Source: an uncultured Peptococcaceae bacterium (lineage in GTDB: Bacteria; Bacillota; Peptococcia; Peptococcales; Peptococcaceae). Taken from it: a DNA stretch of 32,375 bases. Location: NCBI GenBank assembly GCA_949743265.1, contig CATJSX010000085.1:1-32375 (forward strand), written 5' to 3'. Below the pieces are notes generated by a model. It saw nothing but the letters and a program-made list of their open reading frames with translations. It was not told where the DNA came from and made no database searches. Shown piece after piece: positions 3,243 to 30,374 of this stretch (position 1 is the first letter of the stretch; each line of letters starts with the position of its first letter). The position numbers were made by a program, and so were the translations under genes.

Positions 3243-3271
3243 TCCGAACCTTAATAGAAGGCAGGTGATTG

Positions 3272-11866: not shown

Positions 11867-11968
11867 AACCATAAGGCTTTGCGAAACAGAAATTTCGAGA
11901 AAAATTTTTAAGGAATGCACAATCATAATAAACCAGAAATTTTTGTTCAGAGAATAGAGGTGATAAAA

Positions 11969-14015: not shown

Positions 14016-14037
14016 ATCAAGAAAGGGGTGAGCAAGC

Positions 14038-15948
14038 ATGAATGAGATCTTGGGCGATCGGTATGAGTTGTTGGAACAAATCGGCAGCGGCGGTATGGCT
14101 GTAGTTTATTTAGCAAGGGACACATTTTTGGACCGTTTAGTAGCTGTAAAAGTTTTGCGTGACGAATATGCTAATGAACAGGATTTCACCCGTCGTTTTC
14201 ATCGGGAAGCCAAAGCAGTCGCTAGTTTGTCTCACCCTAATATCATCAATATTTATGATTTTGGCGAAAGCGGACACAAAAGTTATTTGGTCATGGAATA
14301 TATTGAAGGCAGAACTTTGAAAGATATTATCAAAGAACGTTCGCCTCTACCTTTAGAACAAATTTTAGATATCAGCCAACAAATCTGTGCGGGCATTTCG
14401 GAAGCGCACAGTCAAAATATTATTCATAAGGATATTAAGCCCCACAATATCCTTATTGATAAAAACGGTATCGTTAAAGTAACGGATTTTGGCATCGCAC
14501 AGGCAGCAAATAATATTACGATTACGCATAATAAAGGTATCTTAGGCTCAGCACACTATTTTTCGCCGGAACAAGCCAGAGGCGACATTGTAGACTGGGC
14601 ATCGGATATTTATTCCATTGGCGTAGTGATGTACGAAATGGTGGTAGGCAAGGTACCTTTCACTGGAGAAAATCCGGTGACAGTGGCGCTAAAACATATT
14701 CAAATGCAGCCGCAGCCGCCATCATCTTTAGGAATTGATGTTGATCCCGCTTTAGAATGGATTATCATGAAAGCTTTATCAAAAAATCCCAAAGACCGTT
14801 TTCATAACGTCTCGGAAATGGAAGAAGAATTAGCAACTATTCAACTGGGACGGAAACGAAATAATAAAAAATACGATCTTGGCAAAAAATATGCCGTTTT
14901 AGAAACATCCGCTACCTCTACAGAAGTCGTAGCTAAAGCAACTAATGACGAAACAAGGATTGTCAAACAAGATTATTTAGAAGAAATTGCCGAAGAAGCA
15001 GAAGATAAACCAAGAGGAAAAAAGATTAGGGTATTAAATTTATTTTTGTTTTTATTGATTGCTATAGCATTAGGCACAGCAGGATTTTTCAGCGTTCAGA
15101 AAATATTTGCCAATAATGAGCTGGAAGTGCCCAACGTTATCGGTGAACGAGAGATTGAAGCAGAAAGAAAATTATTGAGTGCTAACTTGACAGTTGTTTA
15201 TGACGAAGCGGAATATGATAATGAAATGGAAGCTGGATTGATTTTGCGGCAAACGCCAACAGCTGGCACTAAAGTCAAAGAAGGCAGAGAAATTACTTTA
15301 GTCGTTTCTTTAGGTGAGAGCCTGATTGAAGTGCCTCAAATCACTGGCATGAATAAAAATGAAGCGGAAGCAACTTTGAATAATAAAAAGTTGATACTTG
15401 GTCAAGAAACAACCAACTATTCTCCCGACGTGCCGGAAGGTGATATCATTATTCAAATTCCTCGTCAGGGAGAAATGGTCAGCGCTGGCACAAAAATAGA
15501 TTATACCATTAGTTTAGGACCAACGCCTAAAATGGTAACGATTCCTGACCTAAGCAAAAAAACGTTAGATGAAGCCAAGGCTGAATTGCGCAAAGCAGGC
15601 TTAGTTTTAGGCACAGTAAAAAAAGAAGAAAGTTATACGCACGAAACAGGGACAATCATTCGTCAATCATTAGCGGCCGATGGTCAAACCATGCAGGATA
15701 CCGTGATTGATTTGGTTGTTAGCGACGGTCCCGGACCTGATGTGTACAAAGTTGGTAAGGTTGAAATGCTCGTGCCTGAAACAGGAACGATGGTATTGGA
15801 ATTAGTAGATGATGACGGCAGCGCTATTATTTATAGCAAAGAATGGCTGCAAGACGACTATTTGTCAACAGAGTTTACTTATAAAGGTTCAGGGTATGTT
15901 AATATTTATTGTAATAATCAACTGGTAGAGACGATACCGCTAAGCTAA
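14038..15948 (+). CDS. pknB: PASTA-domain Ser/Thr protein kinase (PknB/PrkC/Stk)
   Basis: A 636-residue membrane kinase that senses muropeptides or lipid II and controls wall synthesis and division. The kinase domain (8-265) has the P-loop GSGGMA (16-21), Lys38, Glu57, catalytic loop H130-K-D132-IKPHNIL and DFG at 150-152, followed by GSAHYFSPEQARG. The usual HRD arginine is Lys131. A juxtamembrane linker (270-330) leads to one membrane helix (332-355). Three PASTA repeats lie outside (about 361-427, 428-495, 498-565). A C-terminal beta tail (570-636) has no recognised name. AGGGGTGAG precedes the ATG. It lies 22 bases after ftsW and 19 before rsgA, so they are co-transcribed. Confidence 0.95.
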   Translation: MNEILGDRYELLEQIGSGGMAVVYLARDTFLDRLVAVKVLRDEYANEQDFTRRFHREAKAVASLSHPNIINIYDFGESGHKSYLVMEYIEGRTLKDIIKERSPLPLEQILDISQQICAGISEAHSQNIIHKDIKPHNILIDKNGIVKVTDFGIAQAANNITITHNKGILGSAHYFSPEQARGDIVDWASDIYSIGVVMYEMVVGKVPFTGENPVTVALKHIQMQPQPPSSLGIDVDPALEWIIMKALSKNPKDRFHNVSEMEEELATIQLGRKRNNKKYDLGKKYAVLETSATSTEVVAKATNDETRIVKQDYLEEIAEEAEDKPRGKKIRVLNLFLFLLIAIALGTAGFFSVQKIFANNELEVPNVIGEREIEAERKLLSANLTVVYDEAEYDNEMEAGLILRQTPTAGTKVKEGREITLVVSLGESLIEVPQITGMNKNEAEATLNNKKLILGQETTNYSPDVPEGDIIIQIPRQGEMVSAGTKIDYTISLGPTPKMVTIPDLSKKTLDEAKAELRKAGLVLGTVKKEESYTHETGTIIRQSLAADGQTMQDTVIDLVVSDGPGPDVYKVGKVEMLVPETGTMVLELVDDDGSAIIYSKEWLQDDYLSTEFTYKGSGYVNIYCNNQLVETIPLS

Positions 15949-15967
15949 AAAGATTGGGGAACAAACA

Positions 15968-16843
15968 ATGAAAGGACATATTATTAAAGGGTACAGCGGG
16001 TTTTATTATGTGTTTTCTCAAGGCAAAATCTACGAATGTTCTTTGCGGGGAAAAAATCGCTGCAAGAGCGTGCGTTTTCTAGTAGGGGATTTGGTAAATT
16101 TCGAGATTATCAGCGAAGACAAAGGCGTGATTGAGAAATTGCTGCCTCGTAAAAACCAGTTGCTGCGCCCACCAATTGCTAATGTTGATCAATTGATCAT
16201 TGCGGCTGCGGCTAAGGAACCATCGCCTGATTTGCGACTAATTGACCGACTAAGTATATTGGCTCAATGGAACAATATTGAGCCTATTATTTGTTTTAAT
16301 AAAAGTGATTTGATCACGGAAGAAGAACGGCAAAAATTGCAGGCTATTTATCAACCGACTGGTTTTCGACTATTTTGGACCAGCGTCTTAAACCAAGAAG
16401 GCATCGACGCATTAAAACAATGCTTAAAAGGCAAAATTTCGGTTTTCGCTGGCAATTCCGGCGTCGGAAAATCCAGTTTAATGAATACTTTAGGCGGTCA
16501 TTGGCAGCTAGCAACCGGAAAAGTCAGCGAAAAGTTAAAGCGCGGACGACATACGACACGCCACGTAGAATTATTTAGTCTTGATGAAAATGCTCTTTTG
16601 GCTGATACCCCAGGCTTTAGTTCCTTAATGCTACCAGAAGATTTAAAACGAGAGGAATTAGGAAAACTTTTTCCTGAATTGATGTTTTTTTTGGGGCAAT
16701 GCCGTTTTGCAACCTGCCTGCACCATCAAGAACCAGATTGCGCCGTAAAAGAAGCCGTGGCAAACGGCAATATTGCAAAAGAGCGCTATGAAAGCTATTT
16801 AATATTTTTACAAGAAGTTATCGCTGCCGAAAGGAGTTATTGA
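15968..16843 (+). CDS. rsgA: Ribosome small-subunit-dependent GTPase RsgA (YloQ)
   Basis: A 291-residue circularly permuted GTPase that acts in late 30S maturation. It has an N-terminal OB fold (about 1-65). The G motifs run in permuted order: G4 NKSD (111-114), G1 GNSGVGKSS (162-170), G2 in RGRHTTRHVEL, G3 DTPG (213-216). The C-terminal zinc domain has ligands C245, C250, H252 and C258 (CRFATCLHHQEPDC). ATG with GGGGAA upstream. Together with pknB and rpe it forms the conserved Bacillota order pknB-rsgA-rpe. Confidence 0.96.
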   Translation: MKGHIIKGYSGFYYVFSQGKIYECSLRGKNRCKSVRFLVGDLVNFEIISEDKGVIEKLLPRKNQLLRPPIANVDQLIIAAAAKEPSPDLRLIDRLSILAQWNNIEPIICFNKSDLITEEERQKLQAIYQPTGFRLFWTSVLNQEGIDALKQCLKGKISVFAGNSGVGKSSLMNTLGGHWQLATGKVSEKLKRGRHTTRHVELFSLDENALLADTPGFSSLMLPEDLKREELGKLFPELMFFLGQCRFATCLHHQEPDCAVKEAVANGNIAKERYESYLIFLQEVIAAERSY

Positions 16844-16845
16844 TC

Positions 16846-17505
16846 ATGATTATCGCGCCATCATTATTGTCAGCTGATTTTGCTTATCTCTCTCAAGAAG
16901 TAGCCGATGTGGAAAAATCGGGAGCTGATTGGCTTCATTTAGACGTTATGGATGGTCAATTTGTACCTAATATTACTTTTGGCGCTGGTTTGATTAAAGC
17001 ACTGCGCCCTCACAGCAAACTATTTTTTGATGTGCATTTGATGATCGAATCGCCAGAGCGATATATTGCTGATTTTGCACAAAGCGGCGCTGATTTAATT
17101 ACTGTACATGTTGAAGCAACGAAGCATTTACATCGCGCTATTCAAACCATCAAAAGCTATCATCTGAAAGCTGCGGTCGCTCTAAATCCTGCTACACCGC
17201 TTGCTGCGGTAGAGGAAATTTTGCCTGAAATTGATATGGTGCTTTTGATGAGCGTTAATCCCGGTTTTGGCGGACAGCAATTTATTGATATTACTACCAA
17301 AATTCGTCGTTTAAAAGCACTATGCAACACCTATCAGCTTCACCCACACATTCAGGTTGATGGCGGCATCACAGTGGAAACGGCTCCACAAGCTATTGCA
17401 GCTGGCGCCGACGTATTGGTTGCTGGTTCGGCAATTTTTGGACAACGTGACCGTCAAGCAGCTATTGAAACCATACGCCAAAGCGTCATGATGAAAGAAA
17501 TTTAA
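16846..17505 (+). CDS. rpe: Ribulose-phosphate 3-epimerase
   Basis: A 219-residue TIM-barrel enzyme that interconverts D-ribulose 5-phosphate and D-xylulose 5-phosphate in the pentose phosphate pathway. Motifs are IAPSLLSADFAYL, WLHLDVMDGQFVPNITFG (metal-binding His/Asp), DVHLMIESPERYI, LLMSVNPGFGGQQFI, IQVDGGI and VAGSAIFG (phosphate binding). ATG 16846 is chosen because AAGGAG (16831-16836) lies 9 bases upstream; a TTG at 16840 would overlap the rsgA stop and sit too close. It is the last gene of the prpC-rpe operon. Confidence 0.96.
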   Translation: MIIAPSLLSADFAYLSQEVADVEKSGADWLHLDVMDGQFVPNITFGAGLIKALRPHSKLFFDVHLMIESPERYIADFAQSGADLITVHVEATKHLHRAIQTIKSYHLKAAVALNPATPLAAVEEILPEIDMVLLMSVNPGFGGQQFIDITTKIRRLKALCNTYQLHPHIQVDGGITVETAPQAIAAGADVLVAGSAIFGQRDRQAAIETIRQSVMMKEI

Positions 17506-17868: not shown

Positions 17869-17916
17869 TTGCAAGCGTTATGAGTGATTGCAATGATTTT
17901 TTGTATAAATTGCAAT
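17869..17916. repeat. Three TTGCAA elements upstream of the phosphohydrolase promoter
   Basis: TTGCAA occurs at 17869-17874, and inside two perfect 8-bp palindromes ATTGCAAT at 17887-17894 and 17909-17916. The two palindromes start 22 bases apart, about two helical turns, and the last ends 4 bases before the -35. This is the layout of an activator or repressor operator; the regulator is unknown. Confidence 0.5.
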
Positions 17917-17920
17917 TAGG

Positions 17921-17949
17921 TTGACAAGCATGAAAAGAAGATATAAAAT
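17921..17949 (+). promoter_or_regulatory. Strong promoter of the AlkP-like gene cluster
   Basis: Perfect TTGACA (17921-17926), a 17-base spacer and TAAAAT (17944-17949). The predicted start is near 17956, about 78 bases before the first gene's ATG. Confidence 0.8.
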
Positions 17950-18033
17950 TATTTTGTAAGAATTAGACATGGCTTCAAATATAGAAAAACAAGGTTTGGA
18001 GTCGTAACAAAATTATTGTAGAGGTGATCGATA

Positions 18034-20073
18034 ATGGTACCAGCAAAAGCTACAAAAGTAGCGGTATTAGGGGTAGACGCAATGGATCCGCGTCTAACCA
18101 GAAAGTATGTAGACATGGGCATTATGCCTAACACCAAAAAGATTTTAGAAGCAGGTTCAGCTAGAGAAGACTTAGTTTTATTAGGCGCTCTGCCAACTGT
18201 TACTCCCCCACAATGGACAACGCTAGCTACAGGTGCTTATCCGCAAACTCATGGTATTACCGCTTTTTACAGACAAGGCGGCGATATGGATATGGTTAAC
18301 TTAAACTTCAATTCCGAACACTGCAAAGCAGAACAATTATGGAATGTTACCGCAGAAGCCGGCAAAAAGACACTCGTTTGGCATTGGCCCGGCAGTGCAT
18401 GGCCACCAAGCTCTGATAGCCCAAATCTTTCTGTCGTTGACGGTACTTCTCCTGGTGGGGTTAACATGAGTAGCGCTCAAGTTGACGTAGAATTCATCGT
18501 TATGGCTAGCGACTTGACAGAAGTAACCACCTATCGTTCCGGCGCTATGGATTCTTCAGCTAAAGTTCCTTGCGTTGTTACTGGTTTGGATAAAGAAGAA
18601 CCGAAAAAGAAAAATACCGGTATGGCTGGTATGATGCAAAGAAAAATGGACGATGGTTTCCGCTTGTACATCATGGATCCGTGGAAAGACGGTCAAGGCG
18701 GTTCCAACGCTATTCCTGCTGACGTTGCTTATTCTACTTTGAAACCAGCAGACAAATGGAGCATTGATTTACCAGAAGGCGCTAAAGAATTTACCTTGTT
18801 ATTATCTGGTGGTTTAGTTCGCCGTCCAGCATTATTATTAAAAAATGATCAAGGCGTTTACGATCATGTTGCAATTTACAAAAACAAAAAGACGATTGAA
18901 CCAATGGTCACCATCAAAAATCGTGAATACGTTCGCGATATCGTTGATGATTGCGTAAAAGATGATGATATCATCCAAGCAAGCCGTGATATGCGCGTAT
19001 TGGAAATCGCTGAAGACGGTTCCAAAGTTAGAATGTGGGTTTCTGCATCCATGAATATCAAAGCTGACATGATGTGGCATCCAAAAGAATTATACAAAGA
19101 AATCGTTGAAAACGTTGGTTATCCATCCCCATGCTCTACATTGGGTTTTGGTGACTTTGAATTGATTTATGACTGCATGCATCAATGCTGGCAGCATGTT
19201 GCTGATTTCCAAGCTGATTCTTTGAATTACCTAATGGAAAATGCTGGTTATGAAGTTGTCTTTTCTCATTTCCATGCACCAGATTTGCAGAAACATATGT
19301 TTATCCGTGATTTAGCAAAAGGTACCGAAAACACTACTGCAGAACAATATGAATTCATCATGCAAGCTATTTACAAACAAACCGATGATTATCTGGGCAA
19401 ATTCGTTCATTTCTTGGATAAAGGCTGGACTTTGATGGTTGTTTCTGACCATGCACAAGTCTGCCCGAAATACGGTCTACGCGGCTTGGGCGATACTGGT
19501 ATGAACGTTCAGATCATGGAACAATTAGGTTATACCGTATTAGAAGTCAATCCAGAAACCGGTAAGAAAAAGAGAAGAGTTGACTGGACCAAAACAAAAG
19601 CTGTTGCTAACCGTGAAATGCATATCTATCTGAACTTAAAAGGCAGAACCGATCATGGTATTGTTGATCCAGAAGATCAGTACGAATTGGAAGAACAAAT
19701 TATTACCGATTTGTATAATATTAAAGATGAAGAAAGCGGCAAACGTATTATCGCATGGGCTTTGCGCAGAAAAGACGCTGTGCCTCTGGGCTTAGGCGGC
19801 GAATATCCTGATTGTGGTGATATTATTTACTGCATGGCTGAAGGGTATGAACATGACCATGATGATAGCATGGCTACATCTTTAGGTGAATGTGATACTT
19901 CTGCTGGTCCAATTTTCTTTGGCGCAGGTCCTGGCTTAAAGAAAAACTTCTACACCGACCGTATGATTCGTCAGGTAGACGTTGCACCAACGATCGCTAC
20001 CATTTTGGGTGTCAGAATGCCTAAAGAATGCGAAGGCGCCCCAATCTATCAGATTTTAGAAGAAGTATTTTAA
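18034..20073 (+). CDS. AlkP-superfamily phosphohydrolase/phosphomutase, paralog 1
   Basis: A 679-residue protein of the nucleotide pyrophosphatase/phosphodiesterase branch of the alkaline phosphatase superfamily (PF01663/COG3379-like). The two-metal site is complete: D15 (LGVDAMDP), nucleophile T57 (PTVTPPQWTTL), D417 and H421 (HAPDLQKH), D472-H473 (VVSDHAQ) and H609 (HDHDDS). There is no signal peptide or membrane helix, so it is cytoplasmic. It is the most divergent of the four paralogs: it lacks their MLR.KGLT start, and has a Lys/Met-rich stretch (about 188-205). GAGGTGAT precedes the ATG. The strong promoter and frequent use of C-ending codons (TTC, ATC, AAC) suggest high expression. The substrate is unknown. 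Confidence 0.88.
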   Translation: MVPAKATKVAVLGVDAMDPRLTRKYVDMGIMPNTKKILEAGSAREDLVLLGALPTVTPPQWTTLATGAYPQTHGITAFYRQGGDMDMVNLNFNSEHCKAEQLWNVTAEAGKKTLVWHWPGSAWPPSSDSPNLSVVDGTSPGGVNMSSAQVDVEFIVMASDLTEVTTYRSGAMDSSAKVPCVVTGLDKEEPKKKNTGMAGMMQRKMDDGFRLYIMDPWKDGQGGSNAIPADVAYSTLKPADKWSIDLPEGAKEFTLLLSGGLVRRPALLLKNDQGVYDHVAIYKNKKTIEPMVTIKNREYVRDIVDDCVKDDDIIQASRDMRVLEIAEDGSKVRMWVSASMNIKADMMWHPKELYKEIVENVGYPSPCSTLGFGDFELIYDCMHQCWQHVADFQADSLNYLMENAGYEVVFSHFHAPDLQKHMFIRDLAKGTENTTAEQYEFIMQAIYKQTDDYLGKFVHFLDKGWTLMVVSDHAQVCPKYGLRGLGDTGMNVQIMEQLGYTVLEVNPETGKKKRRVDWTKTKAVANREMHIYLNLKGRTDHGIVDPEDQYELEEQIITDLYNIKDEESGKRIIAWALRRKDAVPLGLGGEYPDCGDIIYCMAEGYEHDHDDSMATSLGECDTSAGPIFFGAGPGLKKNFYTDRMIRQVDVAPTIATILGVRMPKECEGAPIYQILEEVF

Positions 20074-20090
20074 TTGATTATGGTTTAACA

Positions 20091-20123
20091 ACATCTGCGA
20101 CCGTATGATATGGTCGCAGATGT
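20091..20123 (+). terminator. Intercistronic hairpin after paralog 1
   Basis: A perfect 12-bp stem (20091-20102 with 20112-20123) with a 9-base loop. The T-run after it is weak (AACTTTATT), so it may be a partial terminator or an mRNA-stability element. Confidence 0.55.
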
Positions 20124-20156
20124 AACTTTATTCAATCGAAAGGGTGTCGACTAATT

Positions 20157-22262
20157 ATGTTAAGAAGTAAAGGTTTAACTGACAAGGTTTTACTCTTAGG
20201 TATTGATGGAATGGATCCTCGTTTTTCTCGCAAAATGGTTGATGAAGGGAAAATGCCCAATTTGAAAAAAATCATTGAAAAGGGTTCTGCTCGTCACGAT
20301 TTGCGTATGTTAGGTGCCGTACCAACGATTACGCCGCCCATGTGGACAACACTATGCACAGGTGCTTATCCAATGACTCACGGAATTGAAGACTTCAATA
20401 TCAACGTGAAAGGCGAATTGGATATCAACTTTGGCGGAATTTATTCCAAATACTGTCATGCCGAACAATTATGGAACATCACAGCTGAAAACGGCAAAAA
20501 AACACTTGTTTGGCATTGGCCCGGCAGTGCATGGCCACCAAGCACTGATAGTCCGAATTTGATGGTTGTCGACGGCACATCACCAGGGGCATTAGGGTTC
20601 GGTTATGCGATGCGCGATTGGGAAAATATTTCTTGTGCCAGCACTAAAGCTACTGAAGCTAAATTTTATCCGTCTGCTTTACGCTCAACCGCCAACTTCA
20701 CCGGCGACCCTGCCGAGTTGGGTCATGTACCTTCACCATACACCAAAGTAGAACATCAACCATACTTTGATGAATTATGGAATGCATTTAAAGAAGGCAT
20801 TGATGGATTTAATGGTCACAAAATGAATAAAGGCATGGATATTCGTACTAATATTCTCATGCCGGGGGATTCTCAAATGGCGACATTGCATTGCTATCAA
20901 TCCAATGTTGGTCTTTCTCCTATCACCGAACCAGAAGGTTGGGGATTTGAAGTTCCAGCAGGCGCTAAAGAATTTACCTTGCTGCAATTATTCGGTAAAA
21001 TGACAAGACCTTGCTTGTTATTAAAGAACGACAAAGGCGTTTATGATAAAGTGGCAATTTATGGCAAAAAAGATGCAGCAACACCTATCGTTGTTCTGGA
21101 AAATGACGTCTATACCCCCAATGTTGCTGATGTGGTTCCAACCAGAGAAGGCAAACTGGAACAAGTGGTTAGAAATATGCGCGTCTTAAACATTGCTGAA
21201 GACGGCTCTTTCGTTCGTATTTGGGTATCCAGCGCCTTTACAGCCGAAGAAGATAGCGTATTCTATCCAAAATGGATCTTCAAAGAAATTAAAGAACATT
21301 TCGGCGCGCCAGTTCCAACCGGTCAATTAGGCGACGGCGATTTGGACGTTATCAATAAATGTAACTTAGAACAATGGAAACAAGCAGCTAAATGGCAAGC
21401 TGACAGCATTAACTATATGATCAAAGAACACGGCGTCGAAGTAGTCTTTTCTCACTTCCATGGTCCTGATATGTCTGGACATACTTATATGACTTCTTTG
21501 AAAAACAGAGAAGACTCCAACGCTGATGAAAAAGACATTTATAAGTGTCATGAAAACACCTATATGATGACCGATGATTATATTGGTGAATTCTTGCCAT
21601 TATTAGACAATGGCTGGGCAATTTTGATTTTCTCCGACCATTCTTTAATTTGTCGTAACGAAGATAATCATCCTTTTATTGGTGATAACTACGGCATTAA
21701 TACAGGCTTAATGGTAGATTTAGGTTACACTGTCTTGAAAAAAGATGAAAACGGCAAGTATTTGCCCGCTATTGATTGGGTAAATACCAAAGCGATTCAA
21801 CAACGCTCTAATAGTATTTTCATCAACCTCAAAGGTCGTGATCGTTTCGGTATTGTTGATCCAGCTGATAAGTATCAATTGGAAGAAGAAATTATTACTG
21901 CTTTGTATCAAGTCACTGATCCCCAAACGAAACGCCGTGTCGTTTCCTTAGCTTTACATCAAAAAGATGCTAATTTGTTGGGCTTAGGCGGCGAATACAC
22001 CAGCGGCGATATTATTTTCTTCTTGCATGACGACTATGTTCATGATCACGGTGAATCATTATCTACTGCCGAAGGCTATGCTGATACTTCCGTTGGACCA
22101 ATTTTTGTAGCTGCCGGTAAGGGGATTAAAGAAGGCTTTGAAATGAAACTGTTCCCACGAGAAGTTGACGTTGCTCCAACAGCTGCGGTACTTCTTGGGG
22201 TTAGAATACCTAAAGAATGTGAAGGCGCACCAGTCTACAGCATTCTTTCTGAAGAACTATAA
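20157..22262 (+). CDS. AlkP-superfamily phosphohydrolase/phosphomutase, paralog 2
   Basis: A 701-residue paralog of the preceding gene. Metal and catalytic residues are kept: D17 (LGIDGMDP), nucleophile T59 (PTITPPMWTTL), D438 and H442 (HGPDMSGH), D494-H495 (FSDHSLI) and H631 (HDHGESL). The segment KKTLVWHWPGSAWPPSTDS is shared almost unchanged by all four paralogs and is probably part of the substrate pocket or cap. The middle (about 150-260) differs most between copies and may set specificity. It starts MLRSKGLTDK; AAAGGGTG lies 12 bases before the ATG. No export signal. It follows paralog 1 by 83 bases containing a hairpin. Confidence 0.88.
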   Translation: MLRSKGLTDKVLLLGIDGMDPRFSRKMVDEGKMPNLKKIIEKGSARHDLRMLGAVPTITPPMWTTLCTGAYPMTHGIEDFNINVKGELDINFGGIYSKYCHAEQLWNITAENGKKTLVWHWPGSAWPPSTDSPNLMVVDGTSPGALGFGYAMRDWENISCASTKATEAKFYPSALRSTANFTGDPAELGHVPSPYTKVEHQPYFDELWNAFKEGIDGFNGHKMNKGMDIRTNILMPGDSQMATLHCYQSNVGLSPITEPEGWGFEVPAGAKEFTLLQLFGKMTRPCLLLKNDKGVYDKVAIYGKKDAATPIVVLENDVYTPNVADVVPTREGKLEQVVRNMRVLNIAEDGSFVRIWVSSAFTAEEDSVFYPKWIFKEIKEHFGAPVPTGQLGDGDLDVINKCNLEQWKQAAKWQADSINYMIKEHGVEVVFSHFHGPDMSGHTYMTSLKNREDSNADEKDIYKCHENTYMMTDDYIGEFLPLLDNGWAILIFSDHSLICRNEDNHPFIGDNYGINTGLMVDLGYTVLKKDENGKYLPAIDWVNTKAIQQRSNSIFINLKGRDRFGIVDPADKYQLEEEIITALYQVTDPQTKRRVVSLALHQKDANLLGLGGEYTSGDIIFFLHDDYVHDHGESLSTAEGYADTSVGPIFVAAGKGIKEGFEMKLFPREVDVAPTAAVLLGVRIPKECEGAPVYSILSEEL

Positions 22263-22288
22263 CAATTAAAATAACGCAAAAAATAGGC

Positions 22289-22322
22289 AGCTGATTGAAG
22301 GACGAAAGACTTTTAATCAGCT
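22289..22322 (+). terminator. Intercistronic hairpin after paralog 2
   Basis: AGCTGATT (22289-22296) pairs with AATCAGCT (22315-22322), with about four further inner pairs including wobbles. TTGCTTATT follows, a weak T-run. Confidence 0.45.
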
Positions 22323-22406
22323 TGCTTATTAAATAGCCAAAATAAATGAGTGGTCATTTGTAAAAAATACGTATATCTGTAGTTTTTGGATAAAAGGAGT
22401 GAACTT

Positions 22407-24503
22407 ATGTTAAGAGAAAAAGGATTGACCCAAAAATTGTTATTATTAGGAATTGATGGTATGGATCCCAGATTTACCAGACGTTTAGTTGATGAAGGTA
22501 AAATGCCTAATACGAAAAAATTTATTGAAAAAGGCGCAGCGCGCCAAGATTTAATGCTTTTAGGCGCAATTCCAACAATTACACCGCCAATGTGGGCAAC
22601 ACTAGCTACCGGCGCTTATCCCATGACGCACGGCATTATGGATTTCAATCTTTCTGCACCCGATGCAGCTGATGTAACTATTGGCGCTTTCTTTTCAAAT
22701 TTTTTAAAAGCAGAGCCATTATGGAATGTCACAGCTGAAGCGGGCAAAAAAACTCTGGTCTGGCATTGGCCCGGCGGTAGTTGGCCGCCAACCACAGATA
22801 ATCCTAATCTAATGGTAGTTGATGGTTCCAGCCCCGGTTCAGTCGGCATGGTTTATGCTACACGTGATTTTGATACGATGTTTATCGCTAGTGATAAAGC
22901 CGAAAAAGTTTCTTATATGCCTTACTCAGTTAAAACATCGGAAGTAGTCGGCGATGAAAAATTGGAATTCATGAGTCTACCGCAAAAATCACCTAATACG
23001 CCAGAATTTAAAGAAAAAATGAAGCGTTATTTTGATGATTATCGAAAAGACATTGAAGTTCATGGTTATCATGCCAGTGAAGGCGATTGTACTTGTAGCG
23101 TACAATTTGAAGAGGACAACGGTTTGATGTGGATGCTAGCAGATTTTCCAACCAGTTGCTCTATTTCGCCAATTTTTCCTGCTAACGGCTGGCATATCGA
23201 TATCCCAGCCGAAAGTAAAGAGTTTGTGCTGGTAATGGGCTATGGCAAAATCACTCGCTATGCGTTAATTTTGAAAAATGAACAAGGCAAATACGATCGT
23301 GTAGCCATTTATAAAAACAAAGACACGCAAGAACCTCTAGTGATTTTAGAAAATGACGTTTTCACGCCGTATATTTATGATAAACAGCCTTCCCGTCAAG
23401 GTGAAGAAAAAGTTATGCGCAATATGCGTATGTTGAAAATTGCTGAAGACGGCAGTTATGTTCGCATTTGGAGTTCTCGTTCTGTATCCTGTGAAGATGA
23501 TTGCGTATGGTATCCTAAAACGCTTTTCAAAGAAATTGTTGATCGTTTTGGTCCGCCGCTGCCAACTAGTCAAATGACCGGTAACGACGCTGATTTGATC
23601 TTAAAATGCAATAACGAACAATGGAAATTAGCGGCTAATTGGCAGGCAAAATCATTGAAATATATGATCGATGAACATGATGTCGACGTTATTTTTTCCC
23701 ATTATCACGGACCAGATTTACAAGGACATAACTATATGAAATATCTTAAAGAACGCGATACCTCGCGTTATAGTGAAGATGAAGTCGTCAAATTTGCTGA
23801 AGCTACTTATAAAGTTACGGATGATTATATCGGCGAATTTCTGCCTTATTTAGATAAAGGCTGGACTATTATTATTTTCTCTGATCATGCGCAGATTTGT
23901 CCAGAAGAACAGCCTCATGTTATTGGAGAAAGCTGCGGCGTCAATGCCGACCCACTGCGTCAGTTTGGTTACACGGTATTGAAAAAAGATGAAAATGGTC
24001 ATGATTTGCCAGAAGTTGATTGGAGCAAAACAACAGCTATTCAAACTCGCGCCAACAGCATTTATCTCAATATCAAAGGCAGAGACCCTCATGGTATTGT
24101 TGATCCTGCCGATAAATATGAATTGGAAGAAAAAATCATCACTGATTTGTACAGCTATCGTGACAAAAAAACTGGTCATCGTGTAGTTTCTTTGGCGTTG
24201 CATAATAAAGACGCTGTTCTTTTAGGTTTAGGCGGTCCTATGGGTTCTGATATTGTACTTTGTGTTCATGATGACTACGGTTTTGATCATGGCAATACAT
24301 TATCTACAGCTTGTGGGCACAATGATACGACCGTATCACCAATTTTCATGGCAGCAGGCAGCGGCGTTAAAGAAAATTATTGCATCAATCGCTACATTCG
24401 TGAAGTTGATGTCGCACCAACAGCCGCTGTTTTATTGGGTGTAGATATGCCGGCTCAATGTGAAGGCGCACCAGCTTATCAAATTTTTACTGAAAAAATG
24501 TAA
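22407..24503 (+). CDS. AlkP-superfamily phosphohydrolase/phosphomutase, paralog 3
   Basis: A 698-residue third paralog. Active-site residues are D17, nucleophile T59 (PTITPPMWATL), D437 and H441 (HGPDLQGH), D493-H494 (FSDHAQI), and the His of FDHGNTL near the C-terminus. The C-terminal motif VDVAPTAAVLLGV is shared with copies 2 and 4. I chose ATG 22407 because AAAGGAG (22393-22399) lies just upstream and the protein then begins MLREKGLTQK like its paralogs; an upstream in-frame start at 22386 would add seven unlike residues. The variable middle (about 150-255) has a Cys-containing stretch GDCTCSV not seen in the others. Substrate unknown. Confidence 0.88.
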   Translation: MLREKGLTQKLLLLGIDGMDPRFTRRLVDEGKMPNTKKFIEKGAARQDLMLLGAIPTITPPMWATLATGAYPMTHGIMDFNLSAPDAADVTIGAFFSNFLKAEPLWNVTAEAGKKTLVWHWPGGSWPPTTDNPNLMVVDGSSPGSVGMVYATRDFDTMFIASDKAEKVSYMPYSVKTSEVVGDEKLEFMSLPQKSPNTPEFKEKMKRYFDDYRKDIEVHGYHASEGDCTCSVQFEEDNGLMWMLADFPTSCSISPIFPANGWHIDIPAESKEFVLVMGYGKITRYALILKNEQGKYDRVAIYKNKDTQEPLVILENDVFTPYIYDKQPSRQGEEKVMRNMRMLKIAEDGSYVRIWSSRSVSCEDDCVWYPKTLFKEIVDRFGPPLPTSQMTGNDADLILKCNNEQWKLAANWQAKSLKYMIDEHDVDVIFSHYHGPDLQGHNYMKYLKERDTSRYSEDEVVKFAEATYKVTDDYIGEFLPYLDKGWTIIIFSDHAQICPEEQPHVIGESCGVNADPLRQFGYTVLKKDENGHDLPEVDWSKTTAIQTRANSIYLNIKGRDPHGIVDPADKYELEEKIITDLYSYRDKKTGHRVVSLALHNKDAVLLGLGGPMGSDIVLCVHDDYGFDHGNTLSTACGHNDTTVSPIFMAAGSGVKENYCINRYIREVDVAPTAAVLLGVDMPAQCEGAPAYQIFTEKM

Positions 24504-24510
24504 AAACATA

Positions 24511-24535
24511 AATTGTTTATTGATAATAGACAATT
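24511..24535 (+). terminator. Small intercistronic hairpin after paralog 3
   Basis: An 11-bp AT-rich stem with one T-G wobble (24511-24521 with 24525-24535) and a 3-base loop. Without a T-run, it is more likely a processing or stability element than a terminator. Confidence 0.35.
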
Positions 24536-24557
24536 ACTAACAAGGAGGACACGAACG

Positions 24558-26636
24558 ATGTTAAGAAGCAAAGGTTTAACCGAGAAGATTTTGCTTTTAG
24601 GAATTGATGGTATGGATCCTCGTTTTTCCAAAAAAATGGTAGATGAAGGTAAAATGCCTCATTTAAAAAAAATGATTGAACAAGGAGCAGCTCGTGAAGA
24701 TTTAATGCTCTTAGGCGGTATGCCCACCATTACACCGCCGATGTGGGCAACATTAGCTACTGGCGCTTATCCCATGACCCATGGAATCATTGATTATAGT
24801 ATTCGCGTTCCCGGCGAATTGGATATGACACAGGAAGCCTTTTACTCTAAATTTTTGAAAGCTGAACCCTTGTGGGATGTTACCGCCAAAGCTGGCAAAA
24901 AAACATTGGTTTGGCATTGGCCCGGCGGCGCTTGGCCACCAACCACTGACAATCCTAATTTGATGGTTGTTGATGGCACGTCTCCCGGCGGTATGGGTAA
25001 TACCACACATAAACGAGATGAAGAAGTGCTTATTGTCGCAACGACTAAAACTACTAGCGGCGGTTTTATGCCGTATGGTTCTAACAATAGTCATATTGAC
25101 TGCGATTTCAGCGAATTAAGACCACAAGCCAGAGCTATGACAATGAATCTAAAAGATGAACGAATCGCTGAATATTATCCAGAATACTTGGAAGGCATTG
25201 TTTTTCAAGATTATGTACCCTCCAAATTCTCTATCAGAAATGCTATTTTCTTCAAAGACAGCAACATGTTTCATCTAGCTGATTGGGCTTTACATGTTTC
25301 TATGTCGCCGATCAGCGAACCGACAGATTGGGCAAACGCACCAGAAGACGCAAAAGAATTTACTATTTATTATATGTATGGTAAAATACAAAAACCCGCG
25401 TTGATTTTGCAGCATAACGGCAAATATGATCAAGTTGCCGTTTATGGCTCTAAAGCAGATAAAGAACCACTTTTCGTGCTTAATGAAGATGAATATACGC
25501 CAAACTGTCCCGATACTTTGCCAACTAAAGATGGTTTGGTCAATGTTGTGCGTAATATGCGCTTATTAGAAGTAGCCCCAGACGGCAGTTACCTTAGAAT
25601 GTGGGCAAGTTGCGCTAATGATTGTGACAATAGCGATTGTTGGTATCCACGTTGGATTTTTGATAAAGTTAAAGCAAAATTTGGCCCGCCACCTGCTACT
25701 TCCATGGCAGCAGGACAAGACGCTGATCTTATCTTGAAATGTGGTCAAGAACAATGGAAACAAGCTGCTAAATGGCAGTCAGACTGCATGAAATATATGA
25801 TGACCAATGAAGGTGTAGAAGTTGTCTTTTCTCATTTTCACGGACCAGATATGGCAGGTCATTCTTACATGAAATATTTGAAAGATCGCGATACGTCCAA
25901 AGTCGGTGAAGCAGAAGTACGCAAATGGGCAGAAAACACCTATATGTGGACTGATGAGTATATTGGTAGCTTTTTGCCGCTGGTCGACGAAGGCTGGACA
26001 ATTCTGCTTTTCTCTGATCATTCTTTGATCTGCCCAGAAAATGAACCCAATGATATTGCTGATAATAGCGGTATCAATGTAGGCATTATGAAAGAATTGG
26101 GCTATACTGTTTTGAAAAAAGATGAGAATGGCAATGAAATCGAGGAAATCGACTGGAGTAAAACACGTGCTATACAAACACGCGCTAACAGCATTTATAT
26201 CAATTTAAAAGGTCGTGAAAAACGAGGCATCGTTGATCCTGCTGACAAATATGAATTGGAAGAACAAATTATTACTGATTTGTACGGCTATCGTGATAAA
26301 AAAACCGGCAAACGTGTCGTTTCTGTCGCACTGCATAACAAAGACGCTGTTTTATTAGGTATGGGTGGAGAATATGCAGCGGATATTATTATTTTAGTTC
26401 ATGAAAATTACAATTTTGATCACGGAGAATCTTTATCAACCGCTACTGGTCATAACGACACTTCTGTTGGTCCGATTTTTGCCGCTGTAGGTCCCGGCGT
26501 CAAAAAAGGCCATGTTATTAACCAATACGTTCGTGAGGTCGACGTCGCACCAACAGCTGCCGTTCTATTAGGCGTAGACATTCCAGCACAATGTGAAGGT
26601 GCGCCGGCTTATCAAATACTCACTGAGAAAATGTAA
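24558..26636 (+). CDS. AlkP-superfamily phosphohydrolase/phosphomutase, paralog 4
   Basis: A 692-residue fourth paralog, with closest visible similarity to copy 3 (shared DNPNLMVVDG, VDVAPTAAVLLGVD, PAQCEGAPAYQI). Active-site residues are D17, nucleophile T59, D431 and H435 (HGPDMAGH), D487-H488 (FSDHSLI), and the His of FDHGESL. ATG 24558 is set by a very good AAGGAGG (24542-24548) and by the shared start MLRSKGLTEK; an in-frame ATG at 24513 would add 15 residues and lie inside the upstream hairpin. The variable region (about 150-255) again differs. It is the last of the four, 137 bases before the GH3 pair. Confidence 0.88.
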   Translation: MLRSKGLTEKILLLGIDGMDPRFSKKMVDEGKMPHLKKMIEQGAAREDLMLLGGMPTITPPMWATLATGAYPMTHGIIDYSIRVPGELDMTQEAFYSKFLKAEPLWDVTAKAGKKTLVWHWPGGAWPPTTDNPNLMVVDGTSPGGMGNTTHKRDEEVLIVATTKTTSGGFMPYGSNNSHIDCDFSELRPQARAMTMNLKDERIAEYYPEYLEGIVFQDYVPSKFSIRNAIFFKDSNMFHLADWALHVSMSPISEPTDWANAPEDAKEFTIYYMYGKIQKPALILQHNGKYDQVAVYGSKADKEPLFVLNEDEYTPNCPDTLPTKDGLVNVVRNMRLLEVAPDGSYLRMWASCANDCDNSDCWYPRWIFDKVKAKFGPPPATSMAAGQDADLILKCGQEQWKQAAKWQSDCMKYMMTNEGVEVVFSHFHGPDMAGHSYMKYLKDRDTSKVGEAEVRKWAENTYMWTDEYIGSFLPLVDEGWTILLFSDHSLICPENEPNDIADNSGINVGIMKELGYTVLKKDENGNEIEEIDWSKTRAIQTRANSIYINLKGREKRGIVDPADKYELEEQIITDLYGYRDKKTGKRVVSVALHNKDAVLLGMGGEYAADIIILVHENYNFDHGESLSTATGHNDTSVGPIFAAVGPGVKKGHVINQYVREVDVAPTAAVLLGVDIPAQCEGAPAYQILTEKM

Positions 26637-26646
26637 ACATCTCGTC

Positions 26647-26675
26647 AGCGCAAGAAGAGAAATTCTTTTTGCGCT
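26647..26675 (+). terminator. Hairpin terminator after paralog 4
   Basis: A 12-bp stem with one G-T wobble (26647-26658 with 26664-26675) and a 5-base loop, followed by a T-rich stretch (ATTTTATTTTTG) starting 8 bases later. It probably ends or reduces transcription into the GH3 genes. Confidence 0.5.
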
Positions 26676-26723
26676 ATTAGCATTTTATTTTTGAAGGACG
26701 CTTTAATGAATAAATGAAGTCGT

Positions 26724-26753
26724 TTTACATAAGGTAATGGACAAGGTTATAGG
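26724..26753 (+). promoter_or_regulatory. Candidate promoter for the GH3 genes
   Basis: TTTACA (26724-26729) and TATAGG (26748-26753) are 18 bases apart. The leader to ATG 26774 would be short, about 15 bases, but would still include AGGA. Confidence 0.3.
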
Positions 26754-26773
26754 GAAAGATGAGGATAAGTTAA

Positions 26774-28390
26774 ATGAACAAAATAATTAAAACAGCGCCA
26801 GAAGAGATTGCCGAAAAATTGGGCGATTTCTATCAGAATGGATGGAATACCTTATTCAATTCAGGTGCTGATTGGCAACAAAGGGTACTGGAAGACATCA
26901 TATATTTAGCCCAAGACAGCCTATATGCTAAAGAGCACGGCTTTGCTCAGATCAAAACGAAAGCAGAATTTGAAGCCATGGTACCCGTATCCGATTACAG
27001 TGATTATCAACCATATATTGAAACCAATATGAAAGAAGATAATCATCAGCTGATCGGCTTAGCAACCGATTACTATTTAATGACAACAGGTACTGCTACT
27101 GGTCAAGTTAAATTTTTTGCTGAAACAAATATTGGCGCACTAGCTCGTCAATTAAGTATTGATATTTGGAATATGCTTCTGATGAAAAATGTTCCACAAA
27201 TGGGGCAGCCCAACATGAAAATGCTGGCCATTGTTAACTGTGCGCCTATCGATAAAGCGCCTAACAACCTGCCGATTTTGCGTGCGTCTGGTCAAGCTGC
27301 CAAAGCGCTGTGGGAAAGAGCAGGAGAGCTATATGTTTTTCCTTACGAATTTTTAGAAGCAGAAATGAGCGATGATGATAGACTCTATTTAACAGCACTT
27401 TATACCGTCAAAGACGTTGATTTTTCATTAGTATTTAGTAACAATCCTGCTTATTTCAATATGATTCTGGATCAAATAGCGCAAAAACCGCAAAAAATAA
27501 TTGACGATATTCGACACGGCTATTTCTCGGTCGATTTAAAAGAAACAGATCGTCTGCTTTTAACAGCGCAATTTTCCGCTGACGAAAAACGAGCTAATGA
27601 GTTGCAAAAATTATTTGATGACTATGGTTATTTGCCTGTTGAGCAAATCTGGCCTAAACTTATCTTTGTTGGTACGTGGCTACCGGGCACAGCAGGGCGA
27701 TTAGCTAAAGATGTTATGCGTCGTTTACCCAAAAATGTGCAGTATATTTCGGAAGGTTATGGTGCTAGTGAAGCCATGCTTAATATCCCTTATGAATTTT
27801 CTAAACCTTATGGTCCTATTGCCGCTTACGCTTATTACTATGAATTCTTACCTTTAGATGGTGGAAAAATTTTATCCATGACAGAAGTTCAGGATGGCGA
27901 ATACTATGAGCTTTTGATTACTACTTATTCAGGCTTATACCGTTATAATATGCATGATATCGTTCAAATTCAAGGTTTTACAGGTGATACTGCTAATATA
28001 GCCTTTTGTTGCAAAAGCTCAGAGGTCTGTCATTTATCTGGAAAAACAATTTATGGTTTTGTTTTGACGGAATTGATAGAGCGAGCCGAAAAAATGCTGG
28101 GCATTTTACTCAGTTATTTTCAATTTTTAGTTGAAGACGACCAACTTTCCGTAGTCATTCAACCTTACGAGAACGATTTCAATACCGAAATGTTTGGCGA
28201 ATGTCTAAAAATTATTGCTCAAGAAGCAGGAATTATTTTGAAACATCTTTATGTCGTTAAAAAAGGCTATTATAATGAGCTATTCCGTCGCTTAGCGCTT
28301 AACGGCAGAAGTATGCAAAACATTAAACTGCCGTTGGTTATAGAAGAAAAACCCTCTGCTGAATGGCTACAACAAATTTATCATAGCTAA
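26774..28390 (+). CDS. GH3-family acyl-adenylate enzyme (acid-amido synthetase-like), paralog 1
   Basis: A 538-residue member of the GH3 branch of adenylate-forming enzymes (PF03321), named from plant enzymes that join amino acids to auxin or jasmonate. The three ATP/AMP motifs are visible: TTGTATGQVKF (104-114), EGYGASE (327-333) and LYRYNMHDIVQI (388-399). In the third, the Gly usual in plant GH3 (YRYxxGD) is His. Other GH3-like segments are VSDYSDYQPYIE and YYEFLPLDGGKILSM. No carrier-protein or membrane segment is present. AGGA lies 7-8 bases before the ATG. It probably activates a carboxylic acid as its AMP ester and passes it to an amine or other acceptor; the acid is unknown. Confidence 0.82.
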   Translation: MNKIIKTAPEEIAEKLGDFYQNGWNTLFNSGADWQQRVLEDIIYLAQDSLYAKEHGFAQIKTKAEFEAMVPVSDYSDYQPYIETNMKEDNHQLIGLATDYYLMTTGTATGQVKFFAETNIGALARQLSIDIWNMLLMKNVPQMGQPNMKMLAIVNCAPIDKAPNNLPILRASGQAAKALWERAGELYVFPYEFLEAEMSDDDRLYLTALYTVKDVDFSLVFSNNPAYFNMILDQIAQKPQKIIDDIRHGYFSVDLKETDRLLLTAQFSADEKRANELQKLFDDYGYLPVEQIWPKLIFVGTWLPGTAGRLAKDVMRRLPKNVQYISEGYGASEAMLNIPYEFSKPYGPIAAYAYYYEFLPLDGGKILSMTEVQDGEYYELLITTYSGLYRYNMHDIVQIQGFTGDTANIAFCCKSSEVCHLSGKTIYGFVLTELIERAEKMLGILLSYFQFLVEDDQLSVVIQPYENDFNTEMFGECLKIIAQEAGIILKHLYVVKKGYYNELFRRLALNGRSMQNIKLPLVIEEKPSAEWLQQIYHS

Positions 28391-28444
28391 GAAGACAATT
28401 CAACCAATAATACGCTTGCGTTTTAATAATCGATTTTCATAATA

Positions 28445-28450
28445 TATAAT
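28445..28450 (+). promoter_or_regulatory. Isolated TATAAT between the GH3 genes
   Basis: A perfect -10 hexamer about 85 bases before the second GH3 gene; the -35 region is AT-rich but unconvincing. It could give the second gene some separate expression. Confidence 0.25.
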
Positions 28451-28533
28451 AATTGGCTGCGGCAGATAATTTTTATGGAGAAGATTATACGTAGTATGTT
28501 ATACTGGTGGAGCAGAGGGGGAATATTGGGGAA

Positions 28534-30213
28534 ATGAAAGAATATCAAAAAGCGTTGGCACAAGCGGCAAAGGAAAATGAAAACGGCGAAAATAATTATA
28601 AAACAATTCCTGAAGCGCTCTTAGAAGTGCATCCGCTGAAACTTTATGAAGAAATGAAGACAATCTTGGCAGATTGTGAACATATACAGCGTATGGTATT
28701 GGCTGAAATCTTATCATTAGCAAAAGATAGTTGTTATGCAAAAGATTATCATTTAGCAAACACTCATGATTTGGAAAGTTGGCGCCAAAAAGCAAAAATT
28801 TCTTATTATGAAGATTACAAGCCTTATATTGAACGGGATATGGCTTCAGAAAGCAATCAGCTATATTCTAGTGAAACAGCGCTTTATATTGCGACAACAG
28901 GCAGTACAGGTGAAATGAAATATTTCACTGAGAGCAATGCCGGCAACGCCGCTAAACAGGTAATTATGGCAGTACGTGGGATGTATATGAGCGCTCTCTT
29001 GCCGGTAACGTTAGATATGGAAGCTAAAAATTTAACCATATCCAATTATGCTTCTGTGGGACAAAGCGCTGATGGTAAAATGATCGTGCGCGCTTCTGGA
29101 CAAACTGCTCGCAATATGCGTAAAAAAACGGGCACTATGAATATTTTACCAGTAGAGTTTTGGGAAATTGAGGGACTTGCCGCTAAAAATAGAGACTATA
29201 TGATTGCCGTTTATGCGTTGTCTGATAAAAGATTAGCTAAAATCTTTTGCAATAATTTAGCGCATTTCGGTCGTATTCTGGACAGAATCGTTCTTGAAGG
29301 AAAAGAAATGATTGAAGATATTCGTACGGGGCATTTTTCTGTGCCGTTAAGTGAAGATGTTCGGCAAATTTTAGCAGAAACTTTTCCACCCAACAAAGAA
29401 CGCGCAGATATGCTGCAAGCAATTATTGACCAAAAAGGTGCGCTTATCACTGAATGTGACGATATTGCAACTATTTGGCCTAATCTGAGTATGGTTGGCT
29501 GTTGGCTCTCAGCCAGCGTAGGACGTGACGCCAGAGAAGTGTTGCGCCGTTTGCCACCGAAAATCAAAGGATTTGATTTAGGTTATGGTGCCAGTGAAGG
29601 CAAAATCAATATACCTACCAAACTAGCTCGAGCTTCAGGAGTAGCAGCGCCGTTTGCTTGCTTTTATGAATTTTTACCGCTTTCGGGCGGAGAACCGTTG
29701 GGAATGTGGGAAGTCGCTGACGGCGGCTACTACGAATTATTGATTACAACCTATTCGGGCTTATATCGCTATAATTTGCAAGACATTGTTAAAATAGACG
29801 GTTTTATCGAGTGCACGCCCAATTTGGAGTTCTGTGGAAAAAGCAGCGAGGTCATCTACGCTAACGGTCAAAAAATTTACGGCTATCAATTGATGGAAGC
29901 GATATCATTAGTAGAAAAAGAGCTAGAGATGGAATTTACTTTAGCACAAGCTTTCAGCAGTAATGAAGAAGGCTATTATTACATCTTATCCGCATGGCAA
30001 CCTTTTGATGGTCATTTAGTCAAAGAAAAATTGGATAAAATAACAAAAGAACATCACAATATGATAAGTCGCGGAATTTATATAGTTGACAAAGATTACA
30101 AAAATACGATTTTCGATAATTTGACTCGCGATGATCGCGGCGTTTGCGGCATTAAGTTACCAGCAGTGGTTGACCATGCGCCTGATAGCCATATTGTAGA
30201 AATCGTATACTAA
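28534..30213 (+). CDS. GH3-family acyl-adenylate enzyme, paralog 2
   Basis: A 559-residue paralog of the preceding gene with an extra polar N-terminal stretch of about 15-20 residues. GH3 motifs are TTGSTGEMKY (121-130), GYGASE (350-355) and LYRYNLQDIVKI (410-421), where Gln replaces the usual Gly before Asp. Shared segments are YYEDYKPYIERDM, FYEFLPLSGGEPLGMWEV and YYELLITTYSGLYRYN. The start is uncertain: ATG 28534 has AGAGGGGG (28514-28521) 12 bases upstream, while GTG 28507 would add nine residues but has no ribosome site nearby. Two differing GH3 copies side by side suggest different acids or acceptors in one pathway, which is inference. A bidirectional terminator follows. Confidence 0.8.
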   Translation: MKEYQKALAQAAKENENGENNYKTIPEALLEVHPLKLYEEMKTILADCEHIQRMVLAEILSLAKDSCYAKDYHLANTHDLESWRQKAKISYYEDYKPYIERDMASESNQLYSSETALYIATTGSTGEMKYFTESNAGNAAKQVIMAVRGMYMSALLPVTLDMEAKNLTISNYASVGQSADGKMIVRASGQTARNMRKKTGTMNILPVEFWEIEGLAAKNRDYMIAVYALSDKRLAKIFCNNLAHFGRILDRIVLEGKEMIEDIRTGHFSVPLSEDVRQILAETFPPNKERADMLQAIIDQKGALITECDDIATIWPNLSMVGCWLSASVGRDAREVLRRLPPKIKGFDLGYGASEGKINIPTKLARASGVAAPFACFYEFLPLSGGEPLGMWEVADGGYYELLITTYSGLYRYNLQDIVKIDGFIECTPNLEFCGKSSEVIYANGQKIYGYQLMEAISLVEKELEMEFTLAQAFSSNEEGYYYILSAWQPFDGHLVKEKLDKITKEHHNMISRGIYIVDKDYKNTIFDNLTRDDRGVCGIKLPAVVDHAPDSHIVEIVY

Positions 30214-30320
30214 AAGAATAATCGTATCATTGACCAAAACAAAATTCAAAAATTGATTACATTGCTTTTAAATGAAGCAGCAAAAGATGCGAAATAAAAA
30301 AGTATGGATTTTGCTTTTAG

Positions 30321-30374
30321 TGATACAAAAAATCCCGTCAAACGATATGCTCTCGACGGGATTTTTTGGTATCA
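30321..30374. terminator. Bidirectional terminator between GH3 paralog 2 and FAD oxidoreductase
   Basis: A perfect 13-bp stem, AAAAAATCCCGTC (30327-30339) with its complement (30355-30367), ends in T6 on one strand and has A6 at the other foot. It can therefore work both ways. With one bulge the pairing extends through TGATAC / GTATCA. Confidence 0.9.

Follow-up and report, generated by a model that had tools for sequence, protein, structure and literature searches.

Four tandem AlkP-superfamily hydrolases beside a GH3 gene pair in an uncultured Peptococcaceae bacterium form one block of a large, lineage-specific family

Four AlkP-superfamily hydrolase genes followed by two GH3 genes, all on one strand, raise the question of whether the six genes build one pathway or are two sets that merely lie next to each other. 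The stretch that was analysed, here called the window, is an entire contig of 32,375 nucleotides (C85) from the 3.04 Mb genome of an uncultured Peptococcaceae-type member of the Clostridia (G000), described as a gut bacterium. The named relatives reached through the GH3 genes are likewise uncultured Peptococcaceae, several of them recovered from the cecum of goat, buffalo or cattle, and for the named relatives as a whole the samples, cecal and other, are mostly from herbivores. We compared this genome with 12 others of its family (13 genomes in all) and with a sample of about 396–398 genomes of the phylum. An earlier note on this DNA had put forward, as a reasonable hypothesis, a pathway that builds acid conjugates and processes phosphorylated or nucleotidyl intermediates, an interpretation that is partly supported by our findings: the four hydrolases (AlkP1 to AlkP4) stand in tandem as one local group within a lineage-specific family of two-metal, cytoplasmic hydrolases with a Thr nucleophile, and the two GH3 genes make up a conserved unit of their own, loosely tied to them.

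The open reading frames lie where the earlier note had placed them, the hydrolases in 18034–26636 and the GH3 genes in 26774–30213 on the plus strand, with Pfam matches far over cut-off. AlkP1 (18034–20073, 679 aa), AlkP2 (20157–22262, 701 aa), AlkP3 (22386–24503, no more than 705 aa, with a possible true start at position 22410, where an ATG lies in frame) and AlkP4 (24513–26636, at most 707 aa) match PF01663 at 87–112 bits (87 for AlkP1; cut-off 23), and AlkP2 to AlkP4 are 43–47% identical to AlkP1. For AlkP4, the copy whose structure was modelled, translation more likely begins at an in-frame ATG at 24558; residues 1–13 have low pLDDT. GH3-A (26774–28390, 538 aa; PF03321 124.7 bits, PF23571 68.6 bits) and GH3-B (28507–30213, 568 aa), which matches the same two domains, share 38% identity. 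The strong promoter that had been proposed matches a sigma-70-type promoter-like site at 17921–17949 on the plus strand (TTGACA-17-TAAAAT, 11 of 12 matches), 85 bases 5' of AlkP1, which is the best of 57 such sites in the stretch (39.6 expected from shuffles). The proposed bidirectional terminator corresponds to a strong hairpin at 30329–30369 (−23.9 kcal/mol on the plus and −27.5 on the minus strand; z −6.1 and −6.8), flanked by U/A-rich sequence on both strands and situated between GH3-B and a convergent gene for an FAD oxidoreductase. While the block is bounded at both ends in this way, it is also interrupted, all on the plus strand, by strong hairpins between AlkP1 and AlkP2 (20091–20123; 15-pair stem, −25.9 kcal/mol, z −6.8, terminator-like or a processing site) and between AlkP2 and AlkP3 (22289–22322; z −4.7), by a weaker one between AlkP4 and GH3-A (26647–26675; −18.1 kcal/mol, z −2.8), and by a promoter-like site 5' of GH3-B (28423–28450; TTAATA-16-TATAAT, 10 of 12). 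Because of these three hairpins and the second promoter-like site, one transcript across all six genes is plausible rather than established. An Rfam search of the window gave no match.

The block does not stand alone: outside it, the genome has another 71 intact copies of AlkP. With 75 intact and three broken copies, the subfamily occupies ~5% of the genome's bases. First-look PF01663 candidates, whose counts are upper bounds and not scored matches, reach 81 in this genome; two relatives have 35 and 24, and in a 396-genome sample of the phylum the counts outside the family stay at or below 17. By scored matches (E <= 1e-13) the other 12 family genomes have 2 to 32 each, with 32 in G010 and 20 in G002. 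At E <= 1e-40 the subfamily was found in only 16 of 398 genomes sampled from the phylum, and the sequences from outside the family are scattered over the tree and not gathered in one clade (FastTree, 165 sequences, a partial sampling of the family's AlkPs that serves as a guide only). The expansion is real and unusual, its members form a distinct subfamily, and the window holds one block of it. The copies are mostly 40–60% identical and for 37 of 64 the nearest sampled relative is in another genome, in agreement with the earlier suggestion of related but distinct substrates over dosage. The expansion also loses members, because three copies, on contigs C146, C13 and C95, have broken frames. 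Orthologs of AlkP1 occur at 77–87% identity in seven other family genomes, and the AlkP1–AlkP2 tandem is kept in G006, G007 and G011. The genes next in line in G007 and G011 encode an SLC13 carrier, a cysteine-rich protein and a permease-less ABC ATPase, to which the G007 locus adds a 312-aa protein of a type without Pfam match and a LysR gene; the block in the window lacks these partners, and neither a LysR nor an SLC13 gene is found inside its AlkP/GH3 block.

The usual company of the AlkP genes is of another kind than GH3. Neighbourhoods in the source genome could be assessed for 64 of the 75 intact copies, and within two genes of the AlkP there was a co-directional gene for an SLC13-type carrier in 44 cases and a LysR gene in 43, one or the other in 51 and both in 36. 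Carrier and LysR genes stand beside 23 and 23 of 29 copies in G010, 14 and 15 of 17 in G002, and 13 and 13 of 16 in G012. Among the 181 genes close to an AlkP, 43 are LysR genes and 40 encode SLC13-type carriers, compared with 8 and 9 of 266 more distant genes (Fisher p about 1e-11 for LysR, 5e-10 for the carriers); these p-values are indicative, the genes being non-independent. The carriers match PF00939/PF03600 and the regulators PF00126/PF03466. The usual unit is a LysR regulator, an AlkP and an SLC13-type carrier, and the strong concentration of both partners near the AlkP genes is what leads us to read these as units in which an intracellular hydrolase is combined with a carrier and a switch specific to it. 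No SLC13 gene was found beside the AlkPs outside the family, which suggests that the carrier is a later partner. Nearly every AlkP of the subfamily outside the family (L148–L162) adjoins a thioredoxin with a CHVC motif and a thioredoxin reductase; the latter has a C-terminal thioredoxin-like part. A further set recurs next to AlkP genes, consisting of a cysteine-rich (zinc-ribbon-like) protein, a permease-less ABC ATPase and a protein of ~312 aa without Pfam match, in the family as well as in an unrelated one (f9) and incomplete in some loci (L187 12033–14217, L186 3270–5449, and L049, L078, L070, L065, L059, L038, L039, L153, L163 and L245).

In an alignment of 70 copies the nucleophile Thr74 and the metal ligands Asp32, Asp446, His450, Asp502 and His503 are present in all and His637 in 69, so the two-metal sites described as intact in AlkP1 to AlkP4 are indeed so, nucleophile included. 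The nucleophiles of PhnA, Xac NPP and PafA fall at the position of Thr74 in a sequence alignment. Nearly all copies lack an N-terminal signal peptide and open at once with the first strand of the fold; the four of the window, earlier called cytoplasmic, have no such signal. The AlphaFold model of AlkP4 (pLDDT 93.7) finds its relatives by Foldseek at E 5e-13, its core matching NPPs and PafA with Z about 30 over 332–408 residues, and roughly 300 residues of the model lie beyond this common core. By residue set and by core fold alike, these are members of the NPP/PhnA/PafA branch of the AlkP superfamily. The hallmark of the subfamily is the third residue after the His-Gly-Ile motif, which is Phe in 45 and Tyr in 25 of the 70 copies and Asn in PhnA and Xac NPP, an Asn that we take to contact the transferred (phosphate) group in NPP, PafA and PhnA.

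Measured against known enzymes, the hydrolases share with the NPP/ENPP group (Xac NPP, ENPP6, ENPP7) the core fold (Z about 28–31 over ~350 residues), the two-metal ligands and the Thr nucleophile, but they are ~300 residues larger, intracellular and 16–20% identical, with the Asn after the motif changed to Phe or Tyr. ENPP6 and ENPP7, which act on choline-type substrates, stand near the top of the Foldseek matches with scores that tie with those of other NPPs, and we do not count this as evidence. Phosphonoacetate hydrolase PhnA is the best sequence match among solved structures and also has a Thr nucleophile, but the AlkPs lack its Asn and are much longer, and they score 23.7–24.5 bits on the PhnA model TIGR02335 (cut-off 407.55). 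PafA shares the nucleophile, an alignable C-terminal half and, apart from inserts, the overall fold, but the equivalent of its Asn100 is replaced, and the AlkPs reach 21–33 bits on the PafA model NF042991 (cut-off 650); PafA is an exported protein. With Phe or Tyr at the Asn position in 70 of 70 copies, the family is not NPP, PafA or PhnA proper. We found no description of this subfamily in the open-access literature.

The replaced Asn could signify a chemistry other than phosphate ester hydrolysis, and this lends some weight to the alternative that the family cleaves organic sulfates or the C-P bonds of phosphonates and has expanded for the use of such compounds. The match to phosphonoacetate hydrolase (E 7.8e-12) and the fact that SLC13 carriers include those for sulfate (PF00939) point in the same direction. 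Against it, the nucleophile is Thr in every aligned copy with no Cys or Ser of the formylglycine type, which does not fit a formylglycine sulfatase; the PhnA model is missed by a wide margin (24 against 407), and no phosphonate genes were recognised next to AlkP copies. We therefore consider this alternative unlikely, if the strongest of the competitors. The sulfatase expansions of the PVC superphylum (PMC6388578) are likewise large, lineage-specific and within the AlkP superfamily, but those are polysaccharide sulfatases, whereas the enzymes described here are Thr-type and intracellular and have their own carriers and regulators.

A more specific hint at the substrate comes from choline metabolism. 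In G004 (L238), a LysR gene faces a co-directional run of SLC13, AlkP, microcompartment shell protein, ALDH, CutC and CutD genes, CutC being over cut-off, and one AlkP with its carrier heads the choline TMA-lyase operon. In G007 (L239), an SLC13–AlkP pair lies near cutD–cutC on the opposite strand, with small exporter-like ORFs in between. Outside the family, AlkP genes stand beside CutC (1544.7 bits, cut-off 1050), CutD (521.6 bits, cut-off 360) and BCCT carriers, and also beside a pyrrolysine-type TMA methyltransferase whose first part scores 497.8 bits against a whole-protein cut-off of 525. In the guide tree, most of these cut- or TMA-linked AlkPs group with the source genome's copy on C10 (L075) and its relatives L222 and L204. 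A single ortholog group thus lies in or beside cut clusters, with carrier and LysR; the window and its genome differ from such clusters in that CutC is absent from the former and none scores over cut-off in the latter. Published descriptions of an AlkP in cut clusters were not found in the open-access literature. In the anaerobe Eubacterium limosum, phosphocholine occurs as an intermediate of catabolism (PMC12155760). Given the cut, TMA methyltransferase and BCCT neighbourhoods, a choline ester is most simply inferred to be the ancestral substrate, and most likely the ancestral enzyme released choline from an ester such as phosphocholine. By gene context this applies to the one ortholog group, to which the C10 copy is the nearest in the source genome; the other copies there would be tied to choline by homology only, because their genome has no CutC over cut-off.

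Considering these findings, our preferred reading, to which we give a probability of about 0.55, is that the AlkPs and their carriers work as import-and-cleave modules whose substrates are small organic esters, at first those of choline and later a range of others, with the GH3 pair standing apart. The SLC13-type carrier would import a small anionic or zwitterionic organic ester, which the AlkP would cleave in the cytoplasm, the freed alcohol or amine serving as a source of carbon, energy or nitrogen, and LysR would turn each unit on in response to the substrate of that unit. The ancestral AlkP would supply choline from an ester such as phosphocholine to choline TMA-lyase, and other paralogs may have shifted to related esters. 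The thioredoxin and thioredoxin reductase genes next to the AlkPs outside the family count against the import-and-cleave reading, which explains no role for them. A bolder version is a good deal more tentative: this would be a gut anaerobe equipped with import-and-cleave modules by the dozen, each regulated on its own and specific to one small organic ester, all derived from a choline-ester hydrolase that feeds trimethylamine formation, and in some of them GH3 may process the released acids or amines. If true, this would be an undescribed way of life. An extreme specialisation such as 75 intact copies in 3 Mb implies that the substrate class is abundant and varied in the habitat, and should the link to choline hold, these enzymes would be an unrecognised family that feeds choline to trimethylamine formation, a reaction that matters in medicine and agriculture. 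The evolution of specificity round a fixed catalytic site could also be studied with this family as a natural library.

The two GH3 proteins are GH3 family members by their Pfam domains and fold, GH3-B matching plant GH3 structures over its full length. The view that both sets of enzymes keep their catalytic motifs holds for the AlkPs and for GH3-B, whose motifs I–III are recognisable (TTGSTG..K, YGASE, GLYRYNLQD), but not for GH3-A, whose ATP motif I is degenerate in all seven orthologs. This contrast suggests a pair of an active and a degenerate partner, in which GH3-B is probably an active acyl-adenylate/amide synthetase. Identity to the plant amido synthetases is 16–21%, and the tandem arrangement with a degenerate partner is unlike both these and the bacterial OlsH (PMC12493201); on the model for OlsH lyso-ornithine lipid synthetase, of ornithine lipid synthesis (NF052613), the two proteins score 28.2 and 25.6 bits against a cut-off of 620, and we rejected an OlsH-type role on these scores. 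The pair occurs in seven family genomes, split into pieces over two contigs in G011, and as a rule a convergent LysR gene comes after it. Outside the family, the next relatives are from Methanobrevibacter curvatus, where they also form a pair, Sporomusa and Thiorhodococcus. The methanogen pair (L088 524–3854) is followed by genes that read as a multidrug exporter of the MATE type and phosphatase/anti-sigma-type regulators, and the Sporomusa GH3s (L089 9080–11647, L092 2618–5182) carry a fused N-terminal extension of ~300 aa and adjoin a HATPase-type protein and a MATE-like transporter gene.

A joint pathway, with the GH3 enzymes forming acid conjugates by way of acyl-AMP and the AlkPs processing phosphorylated or nucleotidyl intermediates, has to be weighed on the distribution of the two sets. 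The conserved neighbourhood that it predicts exists in part, the pair adjoining AlkP genes in three of the seven genomes, here, in G011 (L032) and in G012 (L033). In G012, which belongs to another genus, the neighbour is an AlkP1 ortholog (86–87%), in G011 it is other AlkPs, and a rough random-placement model puts three of seven at a chance of about 0.003. Moreover, the site 3' of a gene named argH from its sequence holds the GH3 pair in G004 and AlkP1 in G007 and G008. On the other side, 71 of the 75 AlkP copies lie away from GH3, and in G005, G007 and G008 the GH3 genes and AlkP1 fall on separate contigs, though contigs end immediately 5' of GH3-A and the genes may still be linked there. A fixed two-enzyme pathway finds no support in the presence of AlkP in all 13 family genomes and of GH3, counting any match, in eight, G001, G002, G003, G006 and G009 having AlkP without GH3. 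Co-occurrence in the phylum sample is confined to three genomes and is unlinked in the two outside the family, and the nearest outside GH3s adjoin MATE-type and other transporter-like and HATPase-type genes, judged from sequence, and not AlkP. The AlkP–GH3 link is possible and not required, and we hold the joint pathway to be possible but secondary, slightly less probable than sulfate-ester or phosphonate use. Just 5' of the G012 pair are two fumarate-reductase-like flavoproteins of 580 aa each (L033 7424–9166 and 11772–13514) and an SLC13 carrier.

A role of the AlkPs in releasing phosphate from imported organophosphates when phosphate is limiting would accord with their superfamily and with the GH3–LysR unit of G007 and G008, which adjoins a PstS-type binding protein, permeases, an ABC ATPase and a sensor kinase, but the LysR regulators are individual to each copy and not shared, 75 copies exceed any such need and the cut-linked copies lie in a carbon catabolic operon, which makes phosphate scavenging improbable. 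An inflation of copy number by a collapsed or mixed assembly or by contamination, conceivable with 208 contigs, is hardly credible for intact frames mostly 40–60% identical in an assembly that is 98.4% complete and 0.9% contaminated, with the family also expanded elsewhere (32 matches in G010, 20 in G002).

Some minor observations were made along the way. The pst/pho-like arrangement at L028 3777–11477 and L029 3734–11527 comprises a phosphate-binding-type protein, permeases, an ABC ATPase and a PAS histidine kinase next to the GH3–LysR unit. Upstream of the block, the window carries a cell-wall and signalling run at 11915–17505 of a PP2C phosphatase, an FtsW/RodA-type protein, a PASTA kinase, RsgA and ribulose-phosphate epimerase, with the FtsW/RodA gene between phosphatase and kinase. 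A serine resolvase/recombinase-type gene (PF00239) at 11191–11802 is flanked by a glycerol kinase gene and the PP2C gene, and at 3269–3853, 3' of floA, there is an ORF of 194 aa without Pfam match.
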